A DNA stretch of 64,000 bases from Woeseia sp. (GTDB lineage: Bacteria > Pseudomonadota > Gammaproteobacteria > Steroidobacterales > Woeseiaceae). The stretch is from positions 310,001-374,000 of the forward strand of contig JAJFKW010000001.1 in the NCBI GenBank assembly GCA_021773015.1, given 5' to 3'. The notes below the pieces were generated by a model that searched no databases, was not told the DNA's origin, and saw nothing but the letters and a program-made list of their open reading frames with translations. This document shows, piece by piece, positions 1-52,300 of this stretch; the stretch's first letter is position 1, and each line of letters opens with the position of its first letter. Both the position numbers and the translations under genes were made by a program.

Positions 1-336
1 GACGTTTACCAATGACATCGCACTTCTCGGGTGCAATTCGCCGGTCGCGCCAACCGAAACCGGCAAGCCGTCTGTAAATGCGAATTTCTGTTGGTGACAG
101 GTAGCACAAGACGTACTACCGTTAATCGAAAATCGTTGATCGTAAAATAGCCGTCGACCCAATTCGATTTTATCCTCGTTCAACAAATTGTCGACAGGAA
201 CCACCGGCTGCGGATATCCACTAGGGAGCGTCCAAAAATTGTCGCCCTTGAGCCAGGTAAATTGGCCTACACTAGCGATGGCGACGGCAATAATGCCAAG
301 GCCGCTCAATATCGTCGCAATTCTCATGCGATTCAT
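1..336 (-). CDS. mbnH: MbnH-like di-haem cytochrome c peroxidase family protein, N-terminal part (runs off the left edge)
   Basis: Only the first 112 codons lie in the window. The ATG at 336-334 overlaps the TGA stop of the upstream mbnP-like gene, which indicates translational coupling. Residues 5-25 form a hydrophobic export segment. A c-type haem motif C-A-T-C-H lies at residues 77-81, after a family-typical R-R-L-F-Y-D stretch and before F-T-D-G and H-P-R-S-A-M-S-L motifs. Proteins of this family are periplasmic di-haem enzymes related to bacterial cytochrome c peroxidase and MauG. The characterised MbnH oxidises a tryptophan of its partner MbnP to kynurenine, which creates a copper site. 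The second haem site is outside the window, so the subfamily rests on this N-terminus and on the partner gene. Confidence 0.85.
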   Translation of the reverse strand, partial: MNRMRIATILSGLGIIAVAIASVGQFTWLKGDNFWTLPSGYPQPVVPVDNLLNEDKIELGRRLFYDQRFSINGSTSCATCHQQKFAFTDGLPVSVGATGELHPRSAMSLVNV

Positions 337-42245: not shown

Positions 42246-43460
42246 TCAATTTGTCTCAGCGTGCCGTCCAAGTTCCAGCTTGGCCACCGATACCCTGTGC
42301 ACCTCGTCCGGTCCGTCCGCCAACCGAAGCGTTCTCGAGCCGGCCCAGGCCGCTGCCAAACCGAAGTCCTGACTCACCCCTGCGCCGCCGTGTATTTGAA
42401 TTGCCCGATCGATAACACGTAATGCCATGCTTGGCGCGACAACCTTGATCATGGCGATTTCACTTTTTGCGGTCTTGTTGCCGACTTTGTCCATCATATC
42501 CGCAGCCTTCAGCGTCAGTAACCGAGCCTGATCAATCTCAATTCGCGAATCGGCAATCGCTTCCCGCACAACGCCCTGAGCCGCCAGCGGTTTACCGAAT
42601 GCAACCCGTTCGTTGGCGCGGCGACACATCGCCGCAAGCGATCGTTCAGCTAAACCGATTAAGCGCATACAATGGTGTATTCGCCCCGGACCCAAGCGAC
42701 CTTGTGCGATTTCAAATCCGCGCCCCTCGCCTAGCAATATATTGTCGAGTGGAACTCTGACGTCAGTAAAACGCATCTCTGCATGGCCATGCGGGGCATC
42801 GTCATAGCCAAATACCGAGAGCGGCCGAATAACTTCCACGCCCGGAGTATCCATTGGCACTAATATCATCGACTGCTGGCTATGCCGTTTTGCATCGGGA
42901 TTTGTTTTACCCATAAAGATGAGAATTTCGCAGCGCGGGTCCATTGCGCCGGATGTCCACCATTTGCGACCATTTATGACATATCCATCTCCGTCGCGCA
43001 GAATGGTAGACGATATATTTGTGGCATCAGACGAGGCGACCTCTGGTTCGGTCATGGCAAACGCGGATCGAATTTGCCCATTCAACAACGGTTGTAACCA
43101 TCTTTTTTGCTGCTCTTGTGTCGCATAGCGGACCAAGACTTCCATATTTCCAGTGTCGGGTGCCGCACAATTGAATGGCTCGGATCCGATCAGAGAGCGC
43201 CCCATCAGTTCCGCCAACGGCGCATACTCAAGATTGCTAAGTCCCGCTCCTTGATCGCTGTCGGGCAAAAACAAATTCCACAGCCCGGCATCCTTGGCTC
43301 GTTTCTTTAACGTTTCCATTACCGCTGGGACAATCCACCGGTCCTGCGAGTCGTTTACAGATTGAAGGTAAGTCTGCTCTGCCGGAAATACATGCTCGCA
43401 CATGAAGTCGTCGAGCGCTTTTTGCAGCGTCTGCACTTTGTCGCTGTAATCAAAATCCAT
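42246..43460 (-). CDS. Acyl-CoA dehydrogenase, ACAD10/11-like
   Basis: A 404-residue acyl-CoA dehydrogenase. Family motifs include F-A-M-T-E-P-x-V-A-S-S-D, the flavin-binding K-W-W-T-S-G-A-M and R-L-G-P-G-R-I-H-H. Near the C-terminus A-D-G-P-D-E-V-H takes the place of the usual E-G-T segment. Such enzymes belong to the ACAD10/11-type subfamily acting on long or hydroxylated acyl-CoA. A potential palindromic element lies upstream at 43649-43665. Confidence 0.9.
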
Positions 43461-43856
43461 AGTGGTCCCTAATAAATTACGCGGTTATGCTGGTCACCTG
43501 ACTTCGGTAGCAGAATAACGCCAGAACTCAATCGCCACCACGCTTTCGAAATACTGCCTAGCGGACGGCTTCGAACGCTACTGACAACAAGACATCGTAT
43601 GCGCATAAATCGCCAATTATCAGGATGTCTATGTCACTCTGATATGTAATAAATCAATGATTTATGCTCTTATTCTCAAAATTTTATTAAGAGAAAATCA
43701 CTTCCGATCAAGCCATCGAAGTCGCTGTTGCGGGTTACTTGAAAAGAAGTCTTGACGGGTTCAAGCGCATTCCAGCGCGAAATCCATCACGCGCAACTTA
43801 AGATGTTGAATTTGTGGCGTTGACTTCGTGATTGCATTGCAACATTATCGCCTATA
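43461..43856. promoter_or_regulatory. Divergent spacer: promoter region of acyl-CoA dehydrogenase and of the ilv-leu leader
   Basis: A 396-bp AT-richer stretch without a supported gene. A perfect 8-bp inverted repeat, ATAAATCA-A-TGATTTAT, lies at 43649-43665, about 190 bp from either divergent start, and a TCTC/GAGA element follows near 43675-43695. Near the right end, TTGACT (43820-43825) and CATTAT (43843-43848) are 17 bases apart and could be the promoter of the leader transcript. Confidence 0.5.
43820..43848 (+). promoter_or_regulatory. Probable sigma-70 promoter of the ilvC-leuB operon
   Basis: TTGACT at 43820-43825 (5 of 6 consensus bases) is 17 bp from CATTAT at 43843-43848 (4 of 6). 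Transcription would then start near 43855-43857, right at the leader ATG. A perfect TATAAT at 43853-43858 overlaps that ATG; it has only a poor TTGCAT 15 bases upstream. Confidence 0.5.
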
Positions 43857-43934
43857 ATGAATATGGTATTGACAACCGGTTTCCTGCGAACCTGCCTCCT
43901 TCTCATCCTTCTAAGCGGGGATCTGAGCGGGTAG
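43857..43934 (+). CDS. Leucine-rich leader peptide of the ilv-leu operon
   Basis: A 25-codon reading frame from ATG to TAG. It contains T-C-L-L-L-I-L-L-S, so CTC CTT CTC ATC CTT CTA run in a row, with more Leu codons before and after. It is followed by an intrinsic terminator and then ilvC. This is the layout of leucine/branched-chain attenuation leaders such as leuL. There is no Shine-Dalgarno sequence; translation may begin at the very 5' end of the transcript. The peptide itself should have no function beyond sensing charged tRNA-Leu. Confidence 0.75.
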   Translation: MNMVLTTGFLRTCLLLILLSGDLSG

Positions 43935-43958
43935 CCAATAACCATACGAATTTAAAGC

Positions 43959-43994
43959 AACCCCGCATTCCATAAGGATCGTGGGGTTTTTTTT
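43959..43994 (+). terminator. Attenuator terminator ahead of ilvC
   Basis: AACCCCGC (43959-43966) pairs with GTGGGGTT (43981-43988), with extra TCC/GGA pairs closing the loop, followed by a T8 run. An alternative pairing exists: GCGGGG at 43915-43920, inside the leader frame just after the Leu codons, complements CCCCGC at 43961-43966. That gives the classic antiterminator if a ribosome stalls on the Leu codons. Confidence 0.85.
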
Positions 43995-44045: not shown

Positions 44046-45032
44046 ATGCAAATGTATTCGGAAGCAGATGTAGATGCCGCCAAGCTCAATGGCAAACGTA
44101 TCGCCATACTAGGCTATGGCAGTCAGGGCAAAGCGCACGCCCTTAACTTGAAAGACAGTGGCCATGACGTGGTCGTTGGCTTGCGGCCGGATGGTGCAAG
44201 TTGGGCGAAAGCAACTGCAGATGGTCTACAGGTCGCGGCACCCCGAGATGCAGTCAAGGGCTCGGCGATTGTTATGTTTCTGACCCCCGACACCGTGCAA
44301 GGGCAATTATACGGCACCGTAGAGTCTGCCGTTGATGACGGTGCAATGCTGATGTTCGCACATGGATTCAACATCCACTTTAAGCAAATTCAACCACGAG
44401 CGGACCTTGATGTCTCGCTAATTGCACCAAAAGGACCTGGCGATCTCGTTCGGCGACAATATCAAGAAGGCCATGGAGTTCCTTGCTTAGTAGCGGTTGA
44501 ACAAGATGCTACGGGCAATGCCCTGCCGCTGGCGCTCGCTTACGCGCACGGTATCGGCGGCGCGCGTGCAGGCGTCATTGAAACGACATTCAAAGAAGAA
44601 ACCGAAACAGACCTGTTCGGCGAACAAGCAGTACTTTGTGGTGGCGCGACCGAATTGGTCGTGGCGGGATTTGAGACGTTGGTAAATGCCGGCTATCAAC
44701 CCGAGGTTGCCTATTACGAGTGCATGCACGAACTCAAGCTTATTGTGGATCTATTGCACGAAGGCGGCATGAAAAAAATGCATGAATTCATCAGCGAAAC
44801 TGCCGCCTACGGCGACCTAACGCGCGGACCCCGAATAGTCGACGATCATGTTCGCGCGAAAATGAAAGAAGTGCTGACAGAAATACAAGACGGCACTTTT
44901 GCTAAGCAGTGGATTGCTGAAAACGACGCCGGGCAACCGGAATACAAGCGCATGATGCAAAACGATCTCGACCATTCCATTGAAGTCGTCGGTGCGAATT
45001 TGCGGAGTCGCATGGATTGGTTGGAAAACTAG
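44046..45032 (+). CDS. ilvC: Ketol-acid reductoisomerase
   Basis: A 328-residue class I enzyme that converts acetolactate to 2,3-dihydroxy-isovalerate (valine/leucine path) and does the parallel isoleucine step, with Mg2+ and NADPH. The Rossmann motif [10 protein letters not shown] is followed by D-V-V-V-G-L-R-P; the C-terminal domain has [15 protein letters not shown] and E-x-x-H-E-L-K-L. The start at 44046 has GGGA nine bases upstream and the usual M-Q-M-Y start; a reading from 44016 adds ten residues. First gene of the operon; no ilvBN or ilvGM is beside it. Confidence 0.96.
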
Positions 45033-45121: not shown

Positions 45122-46690
45122 ATGAGCAACTCGCACGTAAAAATCTTCGATACGACACTGAGAGATGGTGAACAGGCTCCTGGCTGTAGTATGACCCTGC
45201 GCGAAAAACTCCGCGTTGCTAAAGCGCTCTCAGAACTTAATGTCGACATTATCGAAGCTGGGTTTCCGGCTGCATCTCCTGGCGACTTCGACGCTGTCAA
45301 GGCGATCGCAGATGAAAATCGCGGTCCGATTATTTGTGGTTTGGCGCGCTGCAATCCGGACGACATTGAAAAAGTCCATGCCGCCGTAAAAGGTGCAGAC
45401 AGCCATCGCATCCATGTATTCGTGGCGACCAGTGCAATTCACCGTGAGCACAAATTGAAAATGGCGAAGGAAGAAATTATTCGTAGCGCGGTGGGCGCAA
45501 TCAAGATGGCGCGCGAGCTATGTGATGACGTCGAGTTTTCACCGGAGGATGCTTCACGAACAGAACTTGCCTATTTGGCGGAAGTTGTCACTGCAGCCAT
45601 TGAAGCAGGTGCAACTACGGTGAACATCCCCGATACAGTGGGCTATACAGTGCCGCATGAATTTCACCAGCTGTTTCGTTACCTCAAAAAACACGTCAAA
45701 AATCTCGACGCCGCAACGCTCAGCGTACACTGTCATGATGATCTCGGGATGGCGGTGGCAAACAGCCTTGCGGCTACCAACGCCGGCGCAAGGCAGGTTG
45801 AATGCACAATCAATGGCATCGGAGAACGTGCAGGAAATTGCTCACTGGAAGAAGTTGTCATGGCGCTGAAAACGCGAGAGGAATTTTTCGGCCTGACAAC
45901 GCAAATTGATTCTACGAGGCTTTACCCGACTTCTCGTTTGGTCGCTGGTATCACCGGTATGCACGTTCCCCGCAACAAAGCGATCGTCGGCGAAAATGCA
46001 TTCGCGCATGAAGCCGGAATCCATCAGCACGGCATGCTTCAACATGCTTCCACATACGAGATTATGAAGCCGGATGACGTCGGCATCAGCAAGTCCAATC
46101 TTGTTCTCGGAAAACACAGCGGGCGCCACGCCTTCCGAAGCCGGGTGCAGGAATTGGGTTTCGACTTAGACGAATTTGAAACCAACCGTGCGTTTCAGGA
46201 ATTCAAGAAACTTGCGGATAAAAAAAAGGATATGTTCGATGGCGACATCGAAGCTATCATCATGAATGCAGATGGTGCGTCCACCGGGCCGTGGATTCTG
46301 CAGGCATTGCAATTTCAATCCGCAACAGATGAAACCGCGTCCGCATCGGTAAAACTCATACACGAAAATGGCACGACCAACGAAATTAGTGCTACGGCCG
46401 ATGGCCCGGTCGAAGCAGCGCTAATGGGATTGGAAAAAGTCACTGGCATCGCTTTGACGTTGCGCAACTTTGAGCTTCGAAGCGCGACCGCCGGCGATGA
46501 CGCCCAGGGGGAAGCAACGGTGACAGCAGACTTTGAAGGCGAGAGCTATCGAGGCCACAGCGCCAGCGTGGATATCGTAGAAGCCGCGACCAGAGCTTAC
46601 CTTGAAGTCATCAATCGCATTCTGCGACGACAGGAACGTGGTGTGTTAAAAAATCGGCAAACTGCGGACGTAAACCAGGCATCCATTTGA
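45122..46690 (+). CDS. leuA: 2-Isopropylmalate synthase
   Basis: A 522-residue enzyme that condenses acetyl-CoA with 2-oxoisovalerate, the first committed leucine step. The TIM-barrel half has F-D-T-T-L-R-D-G-E-Q-A-P-G and the metal-binding H-C-H-D-D-L-G. A C-terminal regulatory domain (from about residue 390, with D-G-P-V-E-A-A) binds leucine for feedback inhibition. The ATG at 45122 has GGGAG upstream; a reading from 45068 adds 18 residues without family support. It lies 89 bp after ilvC. Confidence 0.95.
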   Translation: MSNSHVKIFDTTLRDGEQAPGCSMTLREKLRVAKALSELNVDIIEAGFPAASPGDFDAVKAIADENRGPIICGLARCNPDDIEKVHAAVKGADSHRIHVFVATSAIHREHKLKMAKEEIIRSAVGAIKMARELCDDVEFSPEDASRTELAYLAEVVTAAIEAGATTVNIPDTVGYTVPHEFHQLFRYLKKHVKNLDAATLSVHCHDDLGMAVANSLAATNAGARQVECTINGIGERAGNCSLEEVVMALKTREEFFGLTTQIDSTRLYPTSRLVAGITGMHVPRNKAIVGENAFAHEAGIHQHGMLQHASTYEIMKPDDVGISKSNLVLGKHSGRHAFRSRVQELGFDLDEFETNRAFQEFKKLADKKKDMFDGDIEAIIMNADGASTGPWILQALQFQSATDETASASVKLIHENGTTNEISATADGPVEAALMGLEKVTGIALTLRNFELRSATAGDDAQGEATVTADFEGESYRGHSASVDIVEAATRAYLEVINRILRRQERGVLKNRQTADVNQASI

Positions 46691-46808: not shown

Positions 46809-47768
46809 ATGAGTTTCAAAGGCGCGAAGTATATTTGGATGAACGGGAAGATGGTTGCATGGGAGCAGGCTTCCGTTCACGTGATGGCACATGCGTTGCA
46901 CTATGGATCATCCGTATTTGAAGGGATCCGAGTGTACAAGACGCCGCAAGGCCCAAAGATTTTCCGCCTAACCGATCATATTCGTAGGCTATTCGACTCC
47001 GCGAAAATATATCGTATGGCCATCCCATACGGCTTCGATGAGTTGATCGCCGTCAGCAAACAAATCATTGATGCAAACGACCTTAACGACGGCGCCTACA
47101 TTCGACCGATTGCCTTTCGCGGTCTAGGAGGCGTCGGCCTCGCTCCGCAACCGGACGATCCCGTTGATGTAGCCATCGCTGCCTGGGAATGGGGCGCATA
47201 CCTTGGTGCCGACGGACTCGAAAAAGGCGTGGATGTTTGCATATCAAGCTGGCAGCGGGTTGCGCCCAACACCGTTCCTGCGCTTGCAAAAGCGGGTGGC
47301 AACTATTTGTCGAGCCAGCTCATCAGCACGGAGGCCAAGCGGCTAGGTTTTGCCGAGGGTATTGCTTTATCCACCGATGGGACGGTTAGCGAAGGCGCTG
47401 GCGAAAATCTATTCGTCATCAAAGACGGGGAAATTATGACGCCGCCGGCGGCGTCATCGATATTGACCGGCATCACCCGAAATACGGTCATGAAACTTGC
47501 TGCACGATTCGGTTATACGGTCAGCGAAAAATCAATCCCGCGAGAGATGCTTTATTTGTCCGATGAAATGTTTTTTACCGGCACTGCCGCGGAAATTACG
47601 CCGATCCGATCTGTCGACCATATTCAAATCGGTACGGGTAAACGCGGACCAATAACCGAATCCATTCAATCCGCATTTTTTGGTTTGTTCAGCGGTGATA
47701 CCGAAGATTCCGATGGATGGCTAGAGAGTGTCGATACCGCACCGGTCGCCGTGGCGAGCGGTTCATAA
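46809..47768 (+). CDS. ilvE: Branched-chain amino acid aminotransferase
   Basis: A 319-residue fold-type IV PLP enzyme that does the last step of valine, leucine and isoleucine synthesis. Family marks are H-A-L-H-Y-G-S-S-V-F-E-G-I-R, the N-Y-L-S-S-Q and E-G-A-G-E-N-L-F segments, and the late T-G-T-A-A-E-I-T-P. GGAG precedes the ATG by about nine bases. Its place between leuA and leuC is unusual. The 118-bp gap before it holds no clear terminator. Confidence 0.95.
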   Translation: MSFKGAKYIWMNGKMVAWEQASVHVMAHALHYGSSVFEGIRVYKTPQGPKIFRLTDHIRRLFDSAKIYRMAIPYGFDELIAVSKQIIDANDLNDGAYIRPIAFRGLGGVGLAPQPDDPVDVAIAAWEWGAYLGADGLEKGVDVCISSWQRVAPNTVPALAKAGGNYLSSQLISTEAKRLGFAEGIALSTDGTVSEGAGENLFVIKDGEIMTPPAASSILTGITRNTVMKLAARFGYTVSEKSIPREMLYLSDEMFFTGTAAEITPIRSVDHIQIGTGKRGPITESIQSAFFGLFSGDTEDSDGWLESVDTAPVAVASGS

Positions 47769-47794: not shown

Positions 47795-49204
47795 ATGAGC
47801 AACACGAAACGTAGGACCCTATACGAAAAAGTCTGGTCGGATCATTTAGTTGTTGATGAATCGCGAGATACTCCGGCGATTCTCTACATCGATCTGCATC
47901 TCATTCACGAGGTGACCACGCCACAAGCATTTTCTGTTTTGCGTAGTCTCGAATTACCGGTAAGACGGCCAGATCTCACTCTGGGGACACTCGACCACTC
48001 TACGCCCACCCTGCCCGTTCGCACTTTCAAGGACTTGCAAATCGCTGGCAACGATGCAGCCAACCAAGTCCGGAAAATGCAGCAAAACTGCCAGGAGTTT
48101 GGCGTTGAACTGCATGATTTTGACAGCATTCACCGCGGAATAGTGCATGTAATTGGCCCCGAACTCGGTGCGACGCAACCGGGTAAAACAATCGTCTGTG
48201 GAGATAGCCACACCAGTACACACGGAGCGTTTGGCGCGCTGGCTTTCGGCATCGGTACAACTGAAGTCGGACACGTACTAGCAACGCAATGCCTATTGCA
48301 GAGAAAAGCGAGGACCTTCGCAGTCGAGATAAGCGGCCAACTAGCACACGGTGTCACTGCCAAGGATGTGGTCCTCGCAATCATTGGCAAAATCGGCGTC
48401 GATGGCGGCACTGGGCACGTTATCGAGTTTTGCGGCGACACTATTCGATCTATGGGAATGGAAAGCAGAATGACAGTCTGCAATATGTCGATCGAGGCAG
48501 GCGCGCGAGCCGGCATGATCGCGCCCGATACAACGACGTTTGAATATCTGAAGGGCCGCGATAACGCCCCCCAGGGCGCCGCATGGAAACGCGCGGTGAA
48601 TCGCTGGCAAGCGCTCGCAAGCGATACCGACGCGGCTTACGATAAAACAGTGAGTTTGTCGGCGAGCGATCTCGCGCCGATGGTCACGTTCGGCACCAAT
48701 CCCGGCATGGTTGTCCCGATTGACGCCGATGTCCCGCATCATGACGGTAGTACGAGTTACAAGAAGGCGCTCGACTATATGCAGTTGGAATCGGGCAAGC
48801 CACTTTCGCAATCGCCGGTAGACGTTGTATTTGTTGGCAGTTGCACCAACTCGCGACTGACCGATCTGCAGGAAGCTGCGAATATACTGGAAGGCCGCAA
48901 AGTTGCCGACGGCGTTAGAATGCTGGTCGTGCCTGGCTCGCAGCAAATAAAGAACGATGCGGAAGCGCTCGGCCTGCACAAAATATTTACAGCCGCCGGT
49001 GCCGAGTGGCGTGAATCTGGTTGCTCAATGTGTCTTGGCATGAATGGCGACACCGTTGGTCAAGGACAGTTGAGCGTTAGCACGAGTAATCGTAATTTCG
49101 AAGGCCGGCAAGGCGTTGGCGCTCGCACGGTGTTGGCGAGTCCGATGACTGCAGCCGCTTCCGCCATAGAAGGCCGCGTTGCGGACCCACGTCGTTACCT
49201 CTGA
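47795..49204 (+). CDS. leuC: 3-Isopropylmalate dehydratase large subunit
   Basis: A 469-residue aconitase-family subunit holding a 4Fe-4S cluster. Cluster cysteines are visible in G-S-C-T-N-S-R and [11 protein letters not shown]. It isomerises 2- to 3-isopropylmalate together with LeuD, whose gene follows directly. Length matches E. coli LeuC (466). Confidence 0.96.
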
Positions 49205-49217
49205 TACATCAATTCCA

Positions 49218-49802
49218 ATGAAACCAATAAAAATCCTCACGTCAAATACGGTGATTCTGCCAAGTACTGATATCGACACGGACCAAATAATTCCTGCGCG
49301 ATTTTTGACGACGACAACACGTGAAGGACTCGGAAAACATCTGTTCTCCGAGTGGCGATATTTGAAAGATGGCAGCGACAATCCTGACTTCGCCTTAAAT
49401 GCGCCGGCTGCAAAAGGTAGTGAAATTTTGGTTGCCGGCAATAATTTTGGCTGCGGATCTTCACGGGAGCATGCGCCGTGGGCGTTGCTGGATTTTGGAA
49501 TCAAGGCAGTCATTAGTACCGAAATTGCGGATATTTTTCGTAGCAATTCTTTGAAAAACGGTTTGTTGCCCATCGTCGTGGGCCCGTCGGTTCACGATTG
49601 GCTGCTTGACAACCCAGGCGCGAGTATTTCGATTGACGTGGAAACCTCAAAAATCACCTTGCCGAATAATGAGCAATGCACATATCCAATCGATAGCTTC
49701 GCACGGCACTGCCTTTTAGAGGGCATTGACCAGCTGGGCTTTTTGCAGAATCATATTACCGATATTGAGAAATTCGAAGAAAAGCGATCATGGAAGCCCT
49801 AA
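49218..49802 (+). CDS. leuD: 3-Isopropylmalate dehydratase small subunit
   Basis: A 194-residue swivel-domain subunit with D-I-D-T-D-Q-I-I-P-A-R-F and G-x-N-F-G-C-G-S-S-R-E-H-A-P-W. The ATG at 49218 is 13 bp after the leuC stop and starts like the family; a reading from 49179 overlaps leuC. It is slightly shorter than E. coli LeuD (201). It overlaps leuB by 13 bp. Confidence 0.95.
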   Translation: MKPIKILTSNTVILPSTDIDTDQIIPARFLTTTTREGLGKHLFSEWRYLKDGSDNPDFALNAPAAKGSEILVAGNNFGCGSSREHAPWALLDFGIKAVISTEIADIFRSNSLKNGLLPIVVGPSVHDWLLDNPGASISIDVETSKITLPNNEQCTYPIDSFARHCLLEGIDQLGFLQNHITDIEKFEEKRSWKP

Positions 49803-50851
49803 TTGCCGTACTACCCGGCGATGGAATCGGGCCAGAAGTTGCGCGCGCCGGGAGTGCTGTTTTACAGGCTGTAGCCGACAAATTCGGCCATAAATTCGAG
49901 CTAGTTGAATCAGCGATCGGCGGCGACGCGATCGATCAACATAATGACCCTCTTCCAAAAGATACGATTGCCAAATGTCGAGACAGCAACGCAGTGCTGC
50001 TTGGCGCCGTTGGTGGACCTAAATGGTCAGATCCAAACGCAGAAGTGAGGCCTGAACAAGGTCTACTACGATTGCGCGCGGAATTAGAAGTCTTCGCAAA
50101 CCTCAGGCCAATTCAAATCCATCCAGCGCTGGTTGGTGCATCGCCATTGCGTCCAGAGTTATTGCAAAACGTCGACATGATCGTCGTTCGCGAGCTAACA
50201 GGCGGAATTTATTTCGGCGAGAAAACCCGTGACGAAAACTCAGCCAGCGATCTTTGCGTTTACCACACCCATGAGATCGAGCGCATAGTCCGAGTTGCAG
50301 CAAACTTGGCGGCGCAACGAAAGAATCGACTTTGCTCTGTCGACAAGGCCAATGTACTGGAAACGTCGCGACTGTGGCGTGCGGTGACAGCGCAAGTCGT
50401 TACAGAAGAATTCACAGAGATTGACTTGGAAGTGCTGTTAGTCGATGCGGCGGCTATGCACTTGCTAAGTCGTCCAGCCGACTTCGATGTAATTGTCACC
50501 GAAAATATGTTTGGCGACATTCTTACCGACGAAGCGTCAATGCTCGCCGGCTCACTCGGTATGTTGCCATCCGCGAGTATTGGCAGCGGTACGCGTGGCC
50601 TGTATGAGCCAATACATGGCTCGGCACCGGACATTGCAGGACGAGGCATCGCCAACCCTTGCGGTACCATTGCTAGCGCGGCGTTATTGCTTCGCCACAG
50701 CCTTGGATTGGACGATGAGGCAATTGCTATCGAAGACGCGCTTGCCAAGCTGATCGAAAACGGCGCGCGAACTGCTGACATTGCCACGCCCAACGAAAAG
50801 ACGCTTACAACCGACGAAATGACGGCATCGTTACTGCAAATCCTAAACTAG
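49790..50851 (+). CDS. leuB: 3-Isopropylmalate dehydrogenase
   Basis: A 353-residue NAD-dependent oxidative decarboxylase completing the leucine-specific chain. It has L-P-G-D-G-I-G-P-E-V, R-P-E-Q-G-L-L-R-L-R, the V-R-E-L-T-G-G-I-Y-F-G substrate loop and E-P-I-H-G-S-A-P-D-I-A-G. Last gene of the operon; it ends seven bases before the convergent metB stop. Confidence 0.96.
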   Translation: MEALIAVLPGDGIGPEVARAGSAVLQAVADKFGHKFELVESAIGGDAIDQHNDPLPKDTIAKCRDSNAVLLGAVGGPKWSDPNAEVRPEQGLLRLRAELEVFANLRPIQIHPALVGASPLRPELLQNVDMIVVRELTGGIYFGEKTRDENSASDLCVYHTHEIERIVRVAANLAAQRKNRLCSVDKANVLETSRLWRAVTAQVVTEEFTEIDLEVLLVDAAAMHLLSRPADFDVIVTENMFGDILTDEASMLAGSLGMLPSASIGSGTRGLYEPIHGSAPDIAGRGIANPCGTIASAALLLRHSLGLDDEAIAIEDALAKLIENGARTADIATPNEKTLTTDEMTASLLQILN

Positions 50852-50858
50852 TCGCATT

Positions 50859-52049
50859 TCATGCCACATTTGCCTCAGCCTGCAGACCTGCGACCAAAGC
50901 AACATTCAATGCCCGGCGAACATCCGCCAACAAGTCCTCCCCATGTTCAATACCAACGGATAAACGAATCAGGGTCGACGAAATACCGGCAGTGGCCAGC
51001 GCCTCATCGGACAGTGGCGCATGCGTCATCGTGGCCGGGTGACAAACCAAGCTTTCAACGCCACCAAGCGATTCGGCGAGACAGAAAAGCTCTAAGCTCG
51101 ACAAGAACGATGTCACCGACTGTAAACCCCCTGCCAATTCGAAACTGACCATACCGCCAAATCCAGCTTGCTGCTCGCATGCAATTTGATGCCCCGGATG
51201 AAATTTTAGGCCGGGATAATAGACATGGTTGACTGCAGCATGCTCTTTCAAGAGGTTTGCTACTGCGGCTGCATTTTCCTCGTGTTGGCGAATCCTCGTA
51301 TGGATAGTCCGAATGCCGCGAAGCGTTAAGAAACTATCAAACGGAGCGCCTGTAATGCCCAAGCAATTGGCCCACCAGGAAAGCCGCTCAAATAGATCAT
51401 CATTTACCGCGACCACTGCGCCTCCCACAACGTCGCTATGACCATTGAGATACTTCGTTGTTGAGTGGATAACCAAGTCCGCGCCAAGCGAAATCGGTTG
51501 CTGTAAAACAGGCGACAAAAAAGTATTGTCGACCGCCAATAGCGCACCGACGTCTTTGGCGACCGACGCAATCGCACGAATATCCGTGATGCGCAGTAAC
51601 GGATTGGATGGCGATTCAAGCAGAATTAACGTTGGCTTCAGGGCTCGAATTTCTGCGCTCGCGGAATTGCTGGTCTGATTGACAAACTCCAATCGAAATT
51701 GTCCACGCTCGGCCAATGCACTGAGCAAACGATGGGTACCGCCATAGCAATCATGTGGAGCAACCAGCAAATCCCCGGGACGCAGCAACTGTACAACCAA
51801 AGTGATGGCAGCCATGCCCGACGATGTCACGACACTTCCAACGCCTCCTTCAAGTTGAGCCAGCGCCTCTCCTAATGCGTCACGCGTAGGATTTCCGCTG
51901 CGCGTGTAGTCATACTGACGTTTCTCGCCAAATTCGCGAAAGGTGAAATTTGTCGACAAATGAAGCGGTGGCACAACAGCTCCGTGCTGCTGATCCGATT
52001 CAATTGCAGCGCGAACAGCCGCAGTTGCAGAATTGATTGCTTTTGTCAT
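50859..52049 (-). CDS. metB: Cystathionine gamma-synthase
   Basis: A 396-residue PLP enzyme of the Cys/Met family that joins an activated homoserine ester to cysteine. The PLP lysine lies in I-H-S-T-T-K-Y-L-N-G-H-S-D. The Y-D-Y-T-R-S-G-N-P-T-R and S-S-G-M-A-A-I segments bind cofactor. Close relatives (MetC, MetY, MetZ) cannot be excluded by motif alone, but the S-box riboswitch upstream fits a methionine-biosynthesis role. GGAG precedes the ATG by nine bases. Confidence 0.88.
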   Translation of the reverse strand: MTKAINSATAAVRAAIESDQQHGAVVPPLHLSTNFTFREFGEKRQYDYTRSGNPTRDALGEALAQLEGGVGSVVTSSGMAAITLVVQLLRPGDLLVAPHDCYGGTHRLLSALAERGQFRLEFVNQTSNSASAEIRALKPTLILLESPSNPLLRITDIRAIASVAKDVGALLAVDNTFLSPVLQQPISLGADLVIHSTTKYLNGHSDVVGGAVVAVNDDLFERLSWWANCLGITGAPFDSFLTLRGIRTIHTRIRQHEENAAAVANLLKEHAAVNHVYYPGLKFHPGHQIACEQQAGFGGMVSFELAGGLQSVTSFLSSLELFCLAESLGGVESLVCHPATMTHAPLSDEALATAGISSTLIRLSVGIEHGEDLLADVRRALNVALVAGLQAEANVA

Positions 52050-52176: not shown

Positions 52177-52300
52177 ACACTCATCTATCGGATGCAACAT
52201 TCGATGCACCGCAGGAGTTGGCACCTTTTCAGAATGGTAAGTTCTGAAGGTTGCCCCAGCTTCAATGGGCCTTTCCCTCGGCTGGTCTCGATGAGTTGGC
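52177..52300 (-). promoter_or_regulatory. SAM-I (S-box) riboswitch upstream of metB
   Basis: On the minus strand this 120-nt stretch matches the S-box aptamer. P1 pairs ACTCATC (52296-52290) with GATGAGT (52185-52179). A CCAGC/GCTGG P2 encloses a GAGGGAAAGGCCC loop, followed by GGGGCAACC. A P3 hairpin (TTCAGAA/TTCTGAA) and the segment AAGGTGCCAACTCC complete the conserved core. It lies about 128 nt before the metB ATG. No T-tract terminator follows, so control is probably at translation, lowering MetB synthesis when SAM is plentiful. Confidence 0.93.

Follow-up and report, generated by a model that had tools for sequence, protein, structure and literature searches.

The leu and ilv attenuators of Escherichia coli combine runs of regulatory codons, competing hairpins and an intrinsic terminator with an ordinary 5' untranslated region. 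Proteobacterial attenuators are said to be treated by Vitreschak et al. (2004), and the title of Morbach et al. (2000), on the ilvBNC operon of Corynebacterium glutamicum, reportedly speaks of a missing ribosome binding site. Attenuators with leaderless leader peptides are a kind already known, from Corynebacterium, Streptomyces and Sinorhizobium. Transcription of C. glutamicum ilvBNC is described as starting one nucleotide from the start codon of the leader peptide IlvL (PMC11857589), the LeuL (leuA, leuS) and IlvL (ilvBHC) leaders of Streptomyces lividans are reported to be leaderless (PMC8079986), and rnTrpL of Sinorhizobium meliloti, for which roles in trans are reported, is described as beginning with the ATG of trpL (PMC7298713). 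For Campylobacter jejuni, a 28-residue leader, LeuL, is described upstream of the leucine operon, with orthologs of 20–35 residues and C-terminal leucines in most Epsilonproteobacteria that have the genes (PMC3847290). The titles and abstract starts listed in searches of the open-licence PMC literature contained no report on an ilvC leader in the family examined here and no report of leaderless leader peptides in Gammaproteobacteria.

Here we analyze the region in front of an operon of the order ilvC-leuA-ilvE-leuC-leuD-leuB in a stretch of 64,000 nucleotides (hereafter, the window). On the strength of a comparison among related genomes that takes in the leader frame, its Leu run, the promoter-to-start distance, a conserved GCGGG and the terminator, it is highly probable (roughly 0.84) that this region is a leucine-responsive, ribosome-mediated attenuator, with a leader frame starting at most 1 nt from the 5' end of the RNA. 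Its parts and the genes behind it are as follows.

43820–43825, plus strand: -35 hexamer TTGACT of the family-conserved promoter, recognized by the conservation of TTGAC[AT]-17-nAnnnT
43843–43848, plus strand: -10 hexamer CATTAT, conserved in the family leaders
43857–43934, plus strand: leader peptide frame of 25 codons plus TAG, MNMVLTTGFLRTCLLLILLSGDLSG, with the start 8 nt past the -10; predicted to be leaderless
43896–43913, plus strand: regulatory codons Leu-Leu-Leu-Ile-Leu-Leu, from the sequence and the in-frame Leu enrichment in 84 leaders
43915–43920, plus strand: GCGGGG, local alternative partner of 43961–43966, from folding
43927–43931, plus strand: GCGGG abutting the stop codon, putative family-conserved 5' strand of the antiterminator, from conservation; pairs with 43962–43966
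43961–43986, plus strand: terminator hairpin, from the fold and the conservation in the family alignment
43961–43966 and 43981–43986, plus strand: left arm CCCCGC and right arm GTGGGG of the terminator, from sequence and fold
43987–43994, plus strand: T8 tract of the terminator, from the sequence
44046–45032, plus strand: ilvC, ketol-acid reductoisomerase (TIGR00465)
45122–46690, plus strand: leuA, 2-isopropylmalate synthase (TIGR00973); start chosen by us
46809–47768, plus strand: ilvE, branched-chain amino acid transaminase (TIGR01122)
47795–49204, plus strand: leuC, isopropylmalate dehydratase large subunit (TIGR00170)
49218–49802, plus strand: leuD, isopropylmalate dehydratase small subunit (TIGR00171); start chosen by us
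49790–50851, plus strand: leuB, isopropylmalate dehydrogenase (TIGR00169)

All six genes score over the curated NCBIfam cut-offs, and with leuA, leuC, leuD and leuB thus identified, the operon makes the amino acid that would be sensed. The start of ilvC was set at the ATG seen in relatives (44046) instead of the listed 44016. The nearest long frame upstream of the leader (42246–43460) is on the opposite strand, so that the terminator at 43961–43986 does not serve that frame.

Like the E. coli leu and ilv attenuators, this region has a run of regulatory codons, competing hairpins and an intrinsic terminator, and it differs from them in the predicted leaderless start. It resembles C. glutamicum ilvBNC as a branched-chain amino acid operon with a terminator, an antiterminator and a start, here predicted, at the leader codon; IlvL, as described, is a 15-residue peptide with mixed Ile, Val and Leu codons, and the phylum, the operon and the hairpins are different (PMC11857589). 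The S. lividans leaders, reported to be leaderless, as is predicted here, encode leucine or branched-chain leader peptides, but the leucine leaders are given as 12–15 residues long, belong to Actinobacteria and, in the case of LeuL1 with its five leucines, are described as being without a typical terminator (PMC8079986). The trpL attenuator of S. meliloti is a proteobacterial one in which the RNA begins at the leader ATG, as predicted here; according to its description, it precedes a tryptophan operon and encodes a 14-residue peptide in an alphaproteobacterium (PMC7298713). LeuL of C. jejuni is alike as a peptide, but its relatives, unlike the leader analyzed here, are described as called with a ribosome site (PMC3847290).

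A match to ilvC was detected in 97 of the 107 genomes of the same GTDB family, probably Woeseiaceae-like Gammaproteobacteria, among which the source genome is the sole member of its genus. With 7 genomes left out for partial or contig-edge matches, 91 loci from 90 genomes (one genome has two) were analyzed. The promoter, in the form TTGAC[AT]-17 nt-nAnnnT, is found upstream of ilvC in 86 of the 91 loci; of the other five, four (L084, L096, L097 and L167) have an upstream region that is absent or too short, and L170 has, by eye, an ilvD-like coding sequence directly upstream of ilvC and lacks a leader. A leucine-rich leader frame followed by a T-tract precedes ilvC in 84 of the 86 promoter-bearing loci, the window included, which supports the leucine attenuator proposed in the initial annotation. 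L164 and L165 have no leader frame, the ilvC promoter being followed straight by the terminator; either the switch was naturally lost there or the assembly is at fault.

The start codon (sought 0–44 nt past the -10, with ATG preferred) is located 6 nt past the -10 in 7, 7 nt in 15 and 8 nt in 54 of the 84 loci, consistent with the leaderless start that had been suggested from the position of the -35/-10 pair. When the 60 nt behind the -10 were shuffled in 1000 rounds, an ATG or GTG 6–8 nt past the -10 appeared in 6.4 loci on average and 14 at most, compared to 76 in the actual leaders, a result that is not to be taken as a probability because the related loci share ancestry. The remaining eight leaders start further from the -10, six at 10–12 nt (four at 10, the others at 11 and 12) and two at 24 nt (L089, the frame of which looks broken) and 28 nt (L166). 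The start codon is ATG in 81 leaders and GTG in 3. Among the 76 leaders with the 6–8 nt spacing, mean pairwise identity is 97% in the -35 hexamer, 88% in the -10 hexamer and 97% in the start codon but only 31% in the 21 nt past the start codon (codons 2–8). The observation that the leader ATG has no ribosome site applies across the family: AGGA, GGAG and GAGG are all absent between the -10 and the start in 83 of the 84 leaders, including that of the window, the sole exception being L166, and only 1 of the 84 has a further in-frame start inside the leader that is accompanied by a ribosome-site-like motif. A pyrimidine precedes the start codon in 72 of the 76 leaders, and in 68 of the 76, the start codon supplies the first purine at or beyond position 7 past the -10. 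The window is one of the four exceptions, with an A before the ATG, so that the 5' end of its RNA may lie at 43856 or 43857, with one extra nucleotide or none. The combination of a fixed spacing, a drifting code and a ribosome-site core in 1 of 84 leaders suggests, at the level of sequence comparison, that transcription and translation of the leader very probably start at the same place.

An automated promoter scan yielded a single match, TTGACT-17-CATTAT, whereas 1.3 were expected in shuffled sequence; because this count is no better than that in shuffles, the promoter call rests on conservation. A perfect TATAAT (43853–43858) overlaps the leader ATG in the window. This box was rejected as the main -10, the family keeping a CATTAT-type box 17 nt behind TTGAC, but it is a possible minor start in this species; such a second start would place codon 3 (ATG 43863) near the 5' end.

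The same promoter-to-start distance recurs in front of trpE. In the source genome, a Trp leader, MKHPTRNANRQNRNWWWSLPKEMAVN, precedes trpE (L232), with the ATG 36 nt behind TTGACG (promoter to ATG at G000:C1:2561474-2561512, L273) and a terminator-like sequence behind the leader. A trpE match was found in 101 of the 107 family genomes, and among the best 30 of these 101 (L273–L302), 29 carry a leader that contains WW or WxW (WWW or WLW) and has its ATG 35 nt (4 loci), 36 nt (21) or 37 nt (4) behind TTGAC[GC]; a terminator-like sequence follows 27 of the 29 leaders, and at the one other locus, L296, the upstream sequence is just 222 nt long. In some trpE loci, the open frame extends upstream of the ATG and into the promoter. 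In the ilvC leaders, the distance from TTGAC to the start is 35–37 nt in 76 of the 84. The promoters of ilvC and trpE differ in sequence, so that the same spacing appears to have been kept twice. Judging from these alignments, the trpE leader is apparently a second leaderless attenuator in the same family, and because this Trp leader is independent and has the same spacing, it supports the attenuator reading of the ilvC leader. Inspection by eye upstream of an acetolactate synthase gene (L224) revealed no leader, and the region upstream of a chorismate-binding gene (L231) shows only long coding-like frames.

Leaderless genes seem to be present but uncommon in the source genome. In 800 kb of it, a -10-like box (five of six bases) is located 6–8 nt before the first ATG in 16 of 568 genes, compared to about 7 expected from other distances. 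Across the same 800 kb and the window (864 kb together), a promoter with a start 6–9 nt past the -10 and a short frame was found at 14 sites, among which the ilvC leader alone has a terminator-like sequence behind it; trpE lies outside the scanned stretch. A search of the whole source genome for TTGAC-16..18-nAnnnT-6..8-ATG gave 122 matches, against 34 in a reversed control that was not matched for ATG frequency. At the 70 of these 122 places inspected by eye, no third leader with an amino acid run and a terminator was seen; the trpE leader falls among the other 52.

Beyond the family, leader-like frames were found at 28 of 40 ilvC loci from other families of the same order (L184–L223), chosen among the matches listed and searched with a rough script 30–79 nt behind TTGAC. 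The distance from TTGAC to the start is 31–42 nt in 13 of these frames and 50–74 nt in 15, with none in between. By eye, some of these peptides shift from Leu to Ile, Leu and Val codons. Eight loci of Lysobacterales (Xanthomonadales), picked by eye from 36 ilvC loci on the basis of a visible leader, have a distance of 36–37 nt and peptides rich in Leu, Val and Ile, for example, LLVLVLIT, whereas most of the other loci among the 36 have, again by eye, an ilvD-like coding sequence directly upstream. From these sequences, the leaderless arrangement seems to reach beyond the family, with apparent losses or gains inside the order.

These distributions bear on the possibility that the region is a classical attenuator, in which the RNA starts upstream of 43857 and the leader frame follows a conventional 5' untranslated region; the spacing to the -10 would then be coincidental or belong to a second promoter. 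The 15 of 28 frames with starts at 50–74 nt in other families would fit such an arrangement, as would the apparent scarcity of leaderless starts in the source genome. Nevertheless, we hold it to be improbable: 76 of the 84 leaders hold the start 6–8 nt past a conserved promoter while the code behind is nearly saturated, 83 have no ribosome-site core in the interval, and the trpE leaders, whose promoter differs in sequence, keep this spacing as well.

The leader frame itself (ATG at 43857, TAG at 43932–43934) proved to be as first annotated, with 25 codons and five Leu codons and one Ile codon in six consecutive positions: codons 14–19 are CTC CTT CTC ATC CTT CTA (43896–43913). Across the family, the peptide varies from 20 to 36 codons, but in the 84 leaders, 33% of the last 20 in-frame codons are Leu, compared to 10% and 3% in the shifted frames. 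CTT is the preferred Leu codon in the family leaders (42%), versus 16% in twelve genes of the window. Gly is the final residue in 76 leaders; 72 of these encode it by GGG, and 71 of the 76 have AGC, GGC, TGC or CGC as the penultimate codon. The resulting GCGGG, which shows 93% pairwise identity across the leaders, is thus fixed as a nucleotide sequence while the residue before the Gly varies, which points to RNA pairing.

The terminator with its T8 tract behind the frame, also noted initially, was confirmed at 43961–43986 and 43987–43994. An automated terminator scan did not list this hairpin, probably because the loop limit of the scan was 8 and the CCCCGC and GTGGGG arms enclose 14 bases, but it is seen in the RNA fold; it is conserved in the family alignment, and the consensus fold of the whole leader tail consists of the terminator only. 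For the antiterminator, the initial annotation had proposed GCGGGG at 43915–43920 as the partner of the left terminator arm. As a general antiterminator strand, this segment was rejected, since the family consensus at the site is gggaG, each base in more than half of the rows. Conservation and the folding of truncated RNAs indicate that GCGGG at 43927–43931 pairs with CCCGC at 43962–43966. The proposed segment is retained as a local alternative, being the stronger partner for early stalls in the window: with the ribosome at codons 14–16, GCGGGG pairs with the left arm at a probability of 0.99, and with stalls at codons 18 and 19, which leave GCGGG at 43927–43931 as the one accessible strand, the latter does so at 0.76. 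In this model, both strands appear to be usable in the window, and only the latter is common to the family.

Three folding states were computed under a simple model in which the ribosome is assumed to occupy 13 nt beginning with the A-site codon, with the RNA ended just behind the left terminator arm, in 71 of the 84 leaders (in the rest, the motif or the Leu position was missed by the script). With a ribosome on the Leu codons, the GCGGG-CCCGC pairing is predicted at a mean probability of 0.83 (median 0.93). With no ribosome, the mean is 0.25 (median 0.06), and GCGGG is held by the upstream leader RNA (mean 0.61, median 0.73). The pairing reaches at least 0.5 in 66 of the 71 leaders when stalled compared to 15 of the 71 without a ribosome and is more probable when stalled in 69 of the 71. 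In the third state, a ribosome at the stop codon, the model takes GCGGG to be covered. When the full-length RNA is folded to equilibrium, the terminator prevails on average whatever the state (0.97–1.00), with L083 and L087 as the exceptions, so that the switch must be decided during transcription, by kinetic folding, as in classical attenuation.

Covariation in relatives, which the initial annotation had named as a check, was examined in 79 of the 84 leaders, those in which the script located the motif or Leu position, with a mixed outcome. The outer helix, GCGGG-CCCGC, is nearly invariant and hence uninformative in this respect. The inner antiterminator helix, which occurs as GCGT-ACGC in 17 leaders, GCG-CGC in 16 and GTTAAT-ATTGAC in 3, and is poor in the window, scores 4.90, above the 4.09 obtained with shuffled strands (maximum of 200, 4.40), but within the range reached when strands are swapped between species (4.69; maximum of 200, 4.94); the signal of species-specific covariation in these alignments is accordingly weak. 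The alignment of the antiterminator region, likewise of 79 leaders, gives a consensus helix at -2.97, which was reached by none of 100 column shuffles and which we count as support only, as its register is slightly offset from that of the single-sequence folds.

From these features, we infer the 5' end of the RNA, initiation by 70S ribosomes, a response to leucine and read-through into the operon, in the following scheme. RNA polymerase would start at about 43856–43857 from TTGACT-17-CATTAT, and a ribosome, presumably 70S, would bind the bare 5' AUG and trail the polymerase. With ample charged Leu-tRNA, the ribosome would reach the UAG and cover GCGGG (43927–43931), such that CCCCGC would pair with GUGGGG and transcription would stop after the U8. 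When leucine is short, the ribosome would stall on codons 14–19, leaving GCGGG free to capture CCCGC (43962–43966) while the right terminator arm is still to be synthesized, and the polymerase would continue into the operon. If no ribosome initiates, the upstream leader RNA would hold GCGGG, and the terminator would form.

The same parts could, in principle, belong to a constitutive partial stop or to the source of a small RNA or peptide that acts elsewhere, with leucine control being secondary. Termination would yield a short leaderless RNA, about 138 nt long, to which rnTrpL of S. meliloti, as described, is comparable (PMC7298713). However, a peptide acting in trans hardly agrees with an N-terminal half as little conserved as codons 2–8, and the parts that are conserved are those of a cis switch, so that we regard this explanation as very improbable.

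At the curated thresholds, Rfam gave only one match in the window, to a SAM riboswitch elsewhere, and no leader family; relaxing the search at the ilvC leader to E values up to 10 gave six sub-threshold matches, none of them to a leader family, and ten related loci gave no match at threshold. We see hardly any chance for a structural switch (a riboswitch, a T-box or a protein-bound leader) with a chance open frame and an untranslated peptide: the conservation of GCGGG and the terminator as RNA and the lack of conservation in the first 21 nt of the frame would suit it, but no Rfam family is found at threshold here or at the ten related loci, and Leu is enriched in a single frame while length and sequence drift.

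Returning to the leucine attenuator with a leaderless start, the 84 Leu and 29 Trp leaders of a single family, in which the promoter-to-start distance is held while the code drifts, together with the sister families in which the Leu start has moved downstream, make up a natural data set on which one can test why several unrelated lineages have put attenuator leader peptides on leaderless ends. For this family, the analysis also puts names to the leader peptides of leucine and tryptophan synthesis and to the regulatory sites concerned. One tentative extension, which we consider rather doubtful, is that the leaderless start is itself a part of the sensor and the usual attenuator build in this lineage (Leu at ilvC, Trp at trpE). 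If so, forced initiation on the bare 5' AUG would couple ribosome and polymerase as soon as the RNA emerges, the switch would read, besides the amino acid, the state of the 70S ribosomes or of initiation factors, and sister families that lost the leaderless start would have changed the input of the switch rather than drifted.

Downstream of the operon, the SAM riboswitch (52178–52297, minus strand, 81.8 bits) lies upstream of a minus-strand frame (50859–52049) that, by eye, resembles a PLP enzyme of Cys/Met metabolism. Upstream of the promoter, an element like GTAWCACAAGTAACTGA begins 28 nt before the -35 in 66 of the 84 leaders and is present anywhere in the 45 nt searched in 70 of the 84. 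With one mismatch allowed, it has 5 matches in 13 genomes, 3 of these at ilvC, compared to 0 in a reversed control. The version in the window, at 43786–43801, is weak, degenerate and displaced. This element may be the site of a regulator.
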